Positions 33,213 to 53,504 of a stretch of DNA of 64,000 bases are shown here, one piece after another. The notes under the pieces are model-generated. The model searched no databases. It was not told where the DNA came from and saw only the letters and a list, made by a program, of their open reading frames with translations. A program made the position numbers and the translations under genes. Within the stretch, counting starts at the first letter, position 1; every line of letters begins with the position of its first letter. The DNA comes from Chryseomicrobium sp. FSL W7-1435 (GTDB lineage: Bacteria > Bacillota > Bacilli > Bacillales_A > Planococcaceae): the NCBI RefSeq assembly GCF_038595005.1, contig NZ_CP151997.1, forward strand, positions 1,674,001-1,738,000. Direction: 5' to 3'.

Positions 33213-33364
33213 TTCTAAAAAAATAACACTCTGCCCAAACAAGGGCAGAGTGTCGGTCAACATTATCTTCCAAGTCAGCACTTGATGGAGGAAGCACCTT
33301 TCTGCATGAGCAGAGGTTGCTGAAGCGTCGTCGGGCCATTTCCCTCGGCTTCTCTTGATAATCA
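33213..33364 (-). promoter_or_regulatory. SAM-I riboswitch (S-box) with terminator
   Basis: On the minus strand the aptamer runs from 33364 to about 33256. It has the S-box hallmarks: TTATCAAGAGA at the 5' side, GAGGGAAATGGCCCGA, then CTTCAGCAACC, GAAAGGTGC and CTTCCTCCATCAAG. The expression platform is an 11-bp terminator stem ACACTCTGCCC/GGGCAGAGTGT (33253-33243 with 33236-33226) followed by a T-run (33225-33214), ending 13 bp before metA. With SAM bound, transcription should stop. Similarity to the S-box is from known consensus; it was not scored. Confidence 0.93.
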
Positions 33365-51552: not shown

Positions 51553-51685
51553 TTCCTTTCACCTCTTGCTTCCTCGTACCTAAATTCGTTACCTTAATCG
51601 TACGGATTTAGGTCCTGGGATTCAAGTTTTTATGTTCATAAACTTTTCACTTTTCAATTTAAAAAAAATAGAGTATATTTTTCTA

Positions 51686-51838
51686 GCAACATAAAATTAT
51701 ATAGTTTGATGAGGGAAGGCAAATGGTGCGCCACCAGCGATTGGTTCTAGTAGGTTCGATTCCTACCCCGAAATTTTTTATGCAGCACAAAATGAAAAAT
51801 TTCAGGGACCGGTAGACCGGTTTAGGAGGAAGATTGAA
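51686..51838 (+). promoter_or_regulatory. Structured leader of the GNAT gene, with a tRNA T-arm-like hairpin
   Basis: A possible promoter is TTTTCA (51651-51656), 17 bp, TATATT (51674-51679). The leader then holds four hairpins in a row: TGGTG-CGC-CACCA (51724-51736); GTAGG-TTCGATT-CCTAC (51750-51766), which has the exact layout of a tRNA T-arm; GAAATTTTT with AAAAATTTC (51770-51778, 51795-51803); and ACCGG-TAGA-CCGGT (51808-51821). The last ends 2 nt before AGGAGGA. It suggests a regulatory leader or the remains of a tRNA-like element. No known riboswitch was recognised. The 285-bp gap 51553-51838 contains nothing else. Confidence 0.45.
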
Positions 51839-52384
51839 TTGCTAAAACGACGCGATTTACAAGACTGCCATGCTCTTTACGAGTTAATGTCTGACCCGTC
51901 TGTGATGAAATTTGTACGCCATAAGGCAGCATCTGCCGAGGAGTACCTCTTTAGTACAAAAATGTTAATTGAGGAAGAAGAGCAAGGAAGCATAATTTCT
52001 CGGACAATCTTAAGTGACTTTGGACAACCCATAGGTACAATCAATCTATTTGACGTACAACAAAGTGCAGGGTTCCTAGGAACATGGATCGGCACACCTT
52101 TTCAAGGCCTTGGCTATAACTCAAAAGCAAAAGAACAATTTTTGAGTGAATTGTTTTTTGAACTGTCTATTGAAAAAGTATTTATGCGCATTCGGAAAGT
52201 GAATGAGAAAAGTTTACGTGCTGCAAGTAAGCTGCCGTATTCAATTCTTGCAAATGACTTATATCCGAATCTATACAATGAGATCAACCGCGATCATGAA
52301 GTCTATGATTTATTCTGTATCACAAAAGACATGTTCTTGTTTACGATGCTTCAACAACAAAATCAAGAAGAACAAGCTATGTAA
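51839..52384 (+). CDS. GNAT-family acetyltransferase
   Basis: 181 residues, starting at TTG with AGGAGGA 8 nt upstream; there is an in-frame stop (TAG) before the RBS, so no longer form exists. Fold: N-terminal LLKRRDLQDCHALYELMSD, acetyl-CoA loop around GTPFQGLGYNSKAKEQFL, and VNEKSLRAASKLPY near the end, typical of RimJ/RimL-type enzymes. A second odd trait is the C-terminal ~45 residues, which deviate from the family pattern. Single gene with a structured leader and a strong terminator. Substrate unknown. Confidence 0.8.
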   Translation: MLKRRDLQDCHALYELMSDPSVMKFVRHKAASAEEYLFSTKMLIEEEEQGSIISRTILSDFGQPIGTINLFDVQQSAGFLGTWIGTPFQGLGYNSKAKEQFLSELFFELSIEKVFMRIRKVNEKSLRAASKLPYSILANDLYPNLYNEINRDHEVYDLFCITKDMFLFTMLQQQNQEEQAM

Positions 52385-52386
52385 TC

Positions 52387-52438
52387 AATTATAAAAAGCA
52401 TTTTCTCTTGTTTGAAAGAGAAAATGCTTTTTATAATT
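52387..52438. terminator. Long bidirectional terminator, GNAT/murG
   Basis: A 23-bp perfect stem (52387-52409 with 52416-52438, loop GTTTGA) with internal A5 and T5 runs. It lies between convergent genes and overlaps the murG stop codon. Confidence 0.9.
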
Positions 52439-53504
52439 ATTTCCAATTATCTTCAAGTAAATCGACAAAATCACTTGGCTTAAGTGGTTGTTTTGCAGCC
52501 GCTTGCCGTGCTTTGATGGCATCTTGTTCGTTTACGAGTTTAATAAGTGCTTGAGTAAACTCTGTCGTCGTCAAGAGGTCCTCCTCTGTGACCACTGCGT
52601 ATCCTTTTTGTGCAAAGTCATGCGCATTCTCTACTTGATCCCCTCGACTGGCTTTCTTAGAAAGTGGAATCAAGTACATTGGTTTTTGAAGAGCTAAAAA
52701 TTCAAAGATCGCGTTGGAACCAGCTCGAGAGATGATGAAGTCACTAACTGCCAAATAGTCCGCCAGTTCATCTGTAACAAATTCAAAGATGCGATAATTT
52801 GGATGGGTCCATTCCTCTTCATGCACATGCCCTTTTCCTGCAAGGTGAATGATTTGGAACGTCTCAACTAGCTTTGAGCGAGTCTCACGAATCAATTGAT
52901 TGATTTTTGCAGAGCCTTGACTCCCACCCATAATCAAAAGAACTGGGAGTGCATCCGTAAAGTTTAGGTTTTTGTAGCTTGCGTGTTTTGATCCTTGAAA
53001 TAACTCTGGTCGAATTAGCGCGCCTACAGACTCACCTTTTCCTGGAAAGTGGTTAGCTGTTGTCTCAAACACAGTAAATACTTTCTTTGCGAAGCGTGAA
53101 GCAATTTTATTTGCAAGTCCAGGTGACATATCGGATTCATGAATGAAGAGTGGTTTATTGGTTAGTTTAGCAGCGAGTGCAAGGGGTACCGAAACGAACC
53201 CGCCCTTTGAAAAAATTGCATGAGGCTTATGACGTCGAATTAAACCCACCGCTTGTGCAATTCCTGCAACCACTTTAAATGGATCCTTCAAGTTTTCGAT
53301 TGAGAGATAGCGGCGTAGCTTCCCGGTTGAAATTGCATGGAATGAAATGTGTGGATAATATTCTTGTAGTAATTCTTCTTCAATTCCACCCGCTTGACCG
53401 ATGTAGTGAATAACATAGCCCCTTTTCTCCAGTTCTGGTATAATGGCTAAGTTTAAAGAAACATGACCAGCGGTTCCTCCGCCAGTTAAAAAAAGTGTTT
53501 TCAT
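52437..53504 (-). CDS. MurG-like UDP-GlcNAc transferase, second type
   Basis: 355 residues, GT-B fold, peripheral membrane enzyme making lipid II from lipid I in the MurG family. Motifs: GGGTAGHV (N-terminal G loop), GGSQGSAKI and the donor-site region SRAGSNAIFEFLALQKPMYLIPL. The acceptor motif reads HESDMSPGLANK, where the main divisome MurG has a HEQN-type segment; this suggests a second, divergent MurG, as seen in some Bacillus. It is alone and not in a dcw cluster. Start ATG 53504, RBS within AGGTC-rich sequence. It may act in spore cortex synthesis; inference only. Confidence 0.85.
   Translation of the reverse strand: MKTLFLTGGGTAGHVSLNLAIIPELEKRGYVIHYIGQAGGIEEELLQEYYPHISFHAISTGKLRRYLSIENLKDPFKVVAGIAQAVGLIRRHKPHAIFSKGGFVSVPLALAAKLTNKPLFIHESDMSPGLANKIASRFAKKVFTVFETTANHFPGKGESVGALIRPELFQGSKHASYKNLNFTDALPVLLIMGGSQGSAKINQLIRETRSKLVETFQIIHLAGKGHVHEEEWTHPNYRIFEFVTDELADYLAVSDFIISRAGSNAIFEFLALQKPMYLIPLSKKASRGDQVENAHDFAQKGYAVVTEEDLLTTTEFTQALIKLVNEQDAIKARQAAAKQPLKPSDFVDLLEDNWK

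Follow-up and report, generated by a model that had tools for sequence, protein, structure and literature searches.

In the thrS leader of Escherichia coli, a tRNA mimic is bound by threonyl-tRNA synthetase, which regulates the translation of its own mRNA. The T-box leaders of Firmicutes are likewise tied to tRNA, which they bind. The yjdF (azaaromatic) riboswitch (RF01764) has itself a tRNA-like fold: in the published account, its T-loop side hides the Shine-Dalgarno site, and ligands that stabilise the fold are activators (PMC9142559). For real tRNAs placed in leaders, that account gives a 2- to 6.3-fold increase of translation in vitro.

The window analysed here, a stretch of 64,000 nucleotides of Chryseomicrobium sp. 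FSL W7-1435, contains a conserved RNA element at positions 51713-51803 of the forward strand, on which all the parts described below also lie. It consists of a 57-nt tRNA-like core and an A/U-rich hairpin, P5. The core is made up of the inner 3 bp of an acceptor stem, a D arm, an arm in the anticodon position and a T arm, whose TTCGATT loop is canonical. From 51713, its sequence is GGG-AA-GGC-(AAATGGTGC)-GCC-ACCA..TGGT-TCTA-GTAGG-(TTCGATT)-CCTAC-CCC. In the acceptor-like stem, the 5' strand GGG (51713-51715) pairs with CCC (51767-51769); the tRNA register, set by the tRNA matches described below, places these strands at tRNA positions 5-7 and 66-68. The D arm (51718-51732) was assigned from the pairing in the alignment and from the fold of the window. 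In the anticodon-position arm (51733-51745), which has a variable loop and shows compensatory stem changes, ACCA (51733-51736) pairs with TGGT (51742-51745). The T arm, GTAGG-(TTCGATT)-CCTAC, occupies 51750-51766, with three pairs changed on both sides, and the 12-bp P5 occupies 51770-51803, with six such pairs.

On the 3' side of the core, P5 is followed by a G-rich segment (GGG, 51805-51807), a hairpin P6 (51806-51823), the Shine-Dalgarno site AGGAGG (51824-51829) and the TTG start, at 51839, of a gene for a GNAT acetyltransferase of 181 amino acids (51839-52384), identified by its open reading frame, Pfam and homologue alignment. Leader and gene are flanked by a sigma-70-like promoter, TTTTCA-17-TATATT (51651-51679), and a terminator-like hairpin (52389-52436), both from a consensus scan. 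The promoter-like site matches at 9 of 12 positions, in a stretch where five such sites were found against 2.5 expected; it would put the transcript start near 51686. A sequence-only reading of this DNA had already placed a T-arm-like hairpin exactly at 51750-51766, with further hairpins and a ribosome binding site before a GNAT gene starting at TTG. All of this was recovered, and the homologues align to that start. The observation is confirmed as real and is larger than first noted.

The nearest neighbours of the element in covariance-model searches are tRNAs. With a model of the core only (R2), six of 398 Bacillota genomes gave the element, which scores 80-93 bits; the next matches listed score 40 bits and below and all lie elsewhere in the genomes. 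The 24 non-element loci fetched (17 + 7) are all tRNA genes, mostly Asn, then Gln, Gly and His, and share one register, in which base 1 of the element falls at about tRNA position 5. As the cloverleaf of R2 and of the leader model R1 was supplied by the analyst, a sequence-only control, R3, was built. It gives 16-20 bits on tRNA genes in 10 of the 24 tRNA-bearing loci (E up to 1); genome-wide, in 101 genomes at E 0.001, it finds no tRNA and only the window's own element. R3 thus finds tRNAs only weakly, and it takes both sequence and structure to obtain the tRNA signal. Below threshold, the Rfam matches over the element (six loci, E up to 10) include tRNA-Sec, with 27.8 and 20.5 bits, the viral family Tymo_tRNA-like, with 19.8 bits, and a few miRNA families.

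The D, anticodon-position and T arms thus lie in tRNA register, and the element shares with tRNA (Asn, Gln and Gly being nearest) these three arms, the TTCGATT T loop and the GG of the D loop. In contrast to tRNA, it is embedded in an mRNA leader, its anticodon-position loop is highly variable and the outer four acceptor pairs are missing: 1.47 of these 4 positions are paired, the background being 1.56, and all four are paired in none of the 157 copies listed. An outer acceptor stem seen by eye in three diverged loci (L191-L193) is, by the same figures, not general. No tRNA was called by ARAGORN in the window, and weak calls (33-36 as printed), of mixed identities, occur in 6 of the 159 copies listed. 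A functional, intact tRNA gene was rejected on the lack of a call in the window and of a 7-bp acceptor stem, and no intact tRNA gene was found at this place in relatives. The sequence-only reading was right that a full tRNA does not fit, but not that neither acceptor nor anticodon arms pair, as both GGG/CCC and ACCA/TGGT do.

Enzymes of the RNase P and RNase Z type classically recognise the T arm and elbow. Such features, and the position of P5 directly after the acceptor 3' strand, would suit a processing element, cut by RNase P, RNase Z or a similar enzyme to set the stability of the mRNA. An acceptor stem of only 3 bp, with its outer four positions at background, makes such cleavage highly improbable.

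Over the cloverleaf and P5, 99.6% of the alignment cells of 134 distinct rows are paired, compared with 35-62% when the partners are slid; changes on both sides occur in eight pairs, against a mean of 3.3 in shuffled alignments, and none of 500 shuffles reached this number. In a more diverse set, of 37 cores, pairing holds in 97.0% of cells, with changes on both sides at six pairs, in the T and anticodon-position stems. The acceptor and D-stem pairs are nearly invariant and carry little weight for or against; this holds for the GGG/CCC stem even though 99.8% of its cells are paired. The window leader, folded alone, is only mildly more stable than its shuffles (z -1.9), and it is therefore conservation and covariation that carry the case.

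Within the leader, conservation is highest in the D and T arms. The GG of the D loop is invariant in all 157 parsed copies listed, although the retrieval pattern itself required it, and the D half of the named loci is partly fixed by that pattern. The T loop, not fixed by retrieval, is identical in all 159 copies listed (157 parsed, two printed). The anticodon-position arm, on the other hand, has 106 different forms in the 157 parsed copies listed. In the diverged loci L191-L193 the arms are kept while the stems have changed, and one of them has the T loop TTCAATT.

The element is widespread in Bacillus-like bacteria. By blastn, 13 of 41 genomes were matched, the window's own included, and 11 of these carry the element; the other two rows (L013, L014) are short matches elsewhere. 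The covariance model R1 scores the element of the window's genome at 108 bits and, of 348 Bacilli genomes, detects strong copies, of 81-114 bits, in 27 from 11 families. Copies of at least 51.9 bits occur in 48 of 250 family genomes; the weak matches below 51.9 bits are tRNA genes in 5 of 5 loci. With the blastn relatives, the 108-bit score and a pairing far above that of slid partners, the element is well beyond chance. A degenerate pattern of the D half retrieved at least 120 named stretches that carry it, and the matches listed include Oceanobacillus, Halobacillus, Neobacillus, Priestia, Anoxybacillus, Jeotgalibacillus, Kurthia and Chryseomicrobium. One locus (L085), from a record labelled Bacillus subtilis strain DE0224, has the element at the end of the stretch fetched.

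The partner gene is constant. In Cytobacillus spongiae, the element stands before an annotated GNAT gene, and the same GNAT follows in 184 of the 186 copies listed (duplicates included), two stretches ending too early; the median distance from GGG to the GNAT is 149 nt in the copies listed. A multicopy or mobile element was rejected, as the window's genome has a single copy and there is no match in phage records or, with the exact pattern, in viral contigs. The same results bear on a tRNA remnant left by, or used as, an integration site, the latter use being a suggestion made from the letters of the window. Such a remnant would explain the likeness to tRNA. However, all testable copies listed keep the same GNAT, the phage records and viral contigs are without a match, no mobile-element cargo occurs among the neighbour clusters listed, and compensatory changes and an invariant T loop run across families. 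A remnant is therefore extremely improbable. For the other suggestion, of a tRNA-mimicking regulatory leader, there is strong support from the conservation in relatives, the covariation and the fixed partner gene, as well as from the tRNA neighbours and the computed switch at the Shine-Dalgarno site described below.

In Rfam 15, the leader has no match at gathering scores and, for the window, no plausible one at E up to 5. No description of it was found in the open-access literature searched, in so far as the texts were accessible, including PMC11109978, PMC8632094, PMC2864571, PMC4793209 and PMC9142559. As far as Rfam 15 and this literature go, the element is undescribed. It is a real, conserved tRNA-like RNA, and very probably a cis-regulatory one.

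On paper, the element would work like the yjdF riboswitch, but it belongs to a different RNA family and goes with a different gene. By comparison with PMC9142559, the two share a tRNA-like fold in an mRNA leader with D- and T-loop counterparts, a stabilised fold that opens the Shine-Dalgarno site, and an OFF state in which the T-arm side serves as anti-Shine-Dalgarno, the loop counterparts being putative and the last two features computed for the element. In contrast to yjdF, the element precedes a GNAT and not a yjdF gene, has a canonical T loop of 7 nt, and shows a two-base AA junction where yjdF has a purine-rich J1/2. The RF01764 model has no match at the element, either in the window (E up to 5) or in six loci (E up to 10). 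The model itself works, with matches in 14 of 151 genomes and in 2 of 14 control genomes, Bacillus subtilis included. Conversely, R2 has no match in six yjdF loci. In two genomes (G283 and G379) the yjdF RNA and the element are present at separate places. Membership of the yjdF family was rejected on the lack of a model match in either direction, the GNAT downstream, the junction and the separate places of the two RNAs.

Like the thrS leader, the element is part of an mRNA leader that imitates tRNA, in its case putatively to regulate translation; in thrS, the regulator is the synthetase and mimicry of the anticodon arm matters, whereas in the element conservation falls on the elbow half and the gene is that of a GNAT. 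T-boxes bind tRNA, while the element itself resembles it, and the Rfam T-box model has no match at the window leader or in the six element loci.

We think it reasonably likely that the leader is a cis-acting translational ON switch with a truncated tRNA fold as its sensor. Such a switch would build on the observed conservation, covariation, tRNA register and GNAT partner, and on alternative folds and a Shine-Dalgarno effect that are computed. The sensor would consist of the inner acceptor stem, the D arm, the anticodon-position arm and the T arm, presumably closed by a D-loop/T-loop elbow. The secondary structure and the loop sequences fit such putative D- and T-loop counterparts. As long as nothing stabilises the core, the G-rich segment downstream of P5 would be paired with the 3' strand of T stem and acceptor, and sequestration would hide the Shine-Dalgarno site, by a C-rich anti-Shine-Dalgarno segment in many Bacillaceae and by the T arm itself in the lineage of the window. 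When the tRNA-like fold is stabilised, the G-rich segment would be freed, P6 would form, the Shine-Dalgarno site would open and the GNAT would be made. We infer the elbow contact as well as the stabilisation by a ligand, the likeliest candidate being a small molecule that the GNAT handles.

The alternative pairings can be followed in the sequences. In many Bacillaceae, the G-rich segment after P5 is GAGGGTGGG, which can pair with the T-stem/acceptor 3' strand CCCACCC or, alternatively, with the C-rich segment before the Shine-Dalgarno site, CTGCCCTC; the latter can also pair with the Shine-Dalgarno site GGAGGG. In the computed folds of the window, the G-rich segment, which is the alternative partner of the acceptor 3' strand, pairs with 51766-51768 in the OFF state and contributes to P6 in the ON state. 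In the OFF fold, the 3' side of the T arm (51760-51765) pairs with the Shine-Dalgarno site (51823-51828). For P6, duplex energies in 157 leaders give clear support, with -13.2 kcal/mol for own and -11.2 for swapped partners (sd of means 0.18). The support is slight for the C3:X helix (-11.50 vs. -11.30, sd 0.04) and the anti-Shine-Dalgarno:Shine-Dalgarno helix (-8.87 vs. -8.64, sd 0.07), where the margins of own over swapped are small.

The Shine-Dalgarno site is, on average over the 157 leaders, 52% unpaired with the core enforced, 18% with the 5' strands of the core blocked and 22% unconstrained, a difference between ON and OFF that partly follows from the constraints chosen. When the core is enforced, 133 of 157 leaders gain more than 0.1 in accessibility of the site and none loses as much, the remaining 24 showing no clear computed effect. 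In the control with dinucleotide-shuffled tails, the site is 30% and 24% unpaired, with 47 leaders up and 20 down. For the window leader, the unpaired fraction is 0.99 with the core enforced and 0.27 with it blocked. As computed, the leader thus joins a conserved sensor to alternative pairings that mask the site, which is the arrangement of a riboswitch. Of the 157 leaders, 118 favour the OFF constraint, so that on these energies, which leave out tertiary contacts, the core would need stabilising for expression.

The architecture also varies between copies. P5 is absent in L106 and L189, and the G-rich segment, by eye, in L191-L193; this variation of the platform speaks against an ON switch, as does the existence of GNAT homologues without a recognisable leader. 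Copies that keep the tRNA-like core without P5 would rather suit a constitutive enhancer, in which contact between the ribosome and a tRNA-like domain in cis would increase initiation, with no sensing involved. The enhancement by real tRNAs in leaders mentioned above keeps this idea alive. It would, however, leave unexplained the covarying P5 and P6 helices and the predicted preference for the OFF state in 118 of 157 leaders, and we regard it as improbable.

Two further features of the leaders were noted by eye. In L065, L067, L143, L184 and similar loci, a run of T comes after the anti-Shine-Dalgarno/Shine-Dalgarno hairpin, CACCCTCC..GGAGGGATTTTTT, and the hairpin resembles an intrinsic terminator as well; the putative switch may, for this reason, also act on transcription. 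In Planococcaceae-type leaders (L007, L008, L032), the sequence after P5, CTAGAAC, CTAGGAT or CTAGAAT, is complementary to GTTCTAG or GTCCTAG in the variable region. This complement follows the C/T change between L008 and L032 and may form a further alternative helix.

The GNAT belongs to Pfam PF13302 (Acetyltransf_3), with 60.3 bits against a cut-off of 25.4 (E 4e-16). Among solved proteins, its profile has the best sequence relative in MccE (E 1e-7), an acetyltransferase that gives self-immunity to microcin C7. Weak matches to a GNAT domain within an IleRS model, with 16-29 bits in those shown, occur for 19 of 28 members. The predicted structure (pLDDT 93.7) fits FdhC, RimL, SpeG, PseH, MccE and AAC(6') about equally. 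MccE, RimL and SpeG share the GNAT fold, but identity in the structure alignments is low (12-22%). The VIA-align rows tie across many GNAT families, so that no family is excluded by them. SpeG chains stand first in the Foldseek list, which suggested a polyamine role, like that of SpeG; it is not favoured, as the alignment has no tyrosine at what we take to be the position of the catalytic tyrosine of SpeG. The link to MccE is a lead only.

MccE acetylates processed microcin C or similar aminoacyl-nucleotides. This matters for the possibility that the leader mimics tRNA for a protein: the GNAT, a synthetase or an enzyme modifying T loops would bind the elbow and set translation. The D and T arms, often read by tRNA-binding proteins, are indeed the best conserved, the leader goes with one gene only, and the matches to MccE and to the GNAT domain of IleRS point the same way. 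These matches are weak, however, many other GNATs fit the fold equally, and, judging from the computed folds, a GNAT that binds the tRNA-like form would raise its own synthesis unless it sterically blocks ribosomes. Protein binding is therefore possible but unlikely. A circuit can also be imagined in which the truncated-tRNA sensor reports the tRNA or aminoacyl pool, or an inhibitor resembling an aminoacyl-adenylate, and switches on an MccE-like acetyltransferase, which removes the cause; this is doubtful.

If a tRNA fold does serve as an ON switch here, it would be the second case in which this fold has been reused as a translation switch, in a sequence register very close to that of real tRNA, as seen from the tRNA genes found by the leader model. 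As the leader is widespread and accompanies a single gene, identifying the stabilising factor would show both which signal is read and what the enzyme does. The element makes it testable whether tRNA-like leaders act by ligand-driven refolding, ribosome contact or tRNA-binding proteins.

Homologues of the GNAT were found, at E up to 1e-20, in 78 of 299 class genomes; many of these homologues lack a recognisable leader, so that the leader is an added control and not part of the enzyme. In 18 other loci with homologues (11 + 7), no clear copy of the leader was seen by eye. The GNAT leader of L241 contains GGGTAGGC..CTTACCCGTAAATTTTTTAC, which resembles, by eye, the acceptor, the start of the D stem and P5, without the T loop; it is perhaps a diverged relative of the element. 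Upstream, the gene met most often, in 64 of the 120 loci listed, is amidohydrolase-like and has the same orientation; it is named after the annotated copy beside the Cytobacillus spongiae GNAT. The other neighbours vary. In the window, the GNAT is convergent with a MurG-like glycosyltransferase reading frame (52437-53504, minus strand), also named after an annotated neighbour; a MurG-like gene lies near the GNAT in 21 of the 120 named loci listed.

Known RNA families were also matched over their gathering scores. The window carries a SAM riboswitch (RF00162) at 33260-33364 on the minus strand, with 77.2 bits. In two Planococcaceae-type genomes, the Staphylococcus sRNA S414 (RF02895) was found about 1 kb downstream of the element (L191, 2676-2849; L193, 2612-2784).
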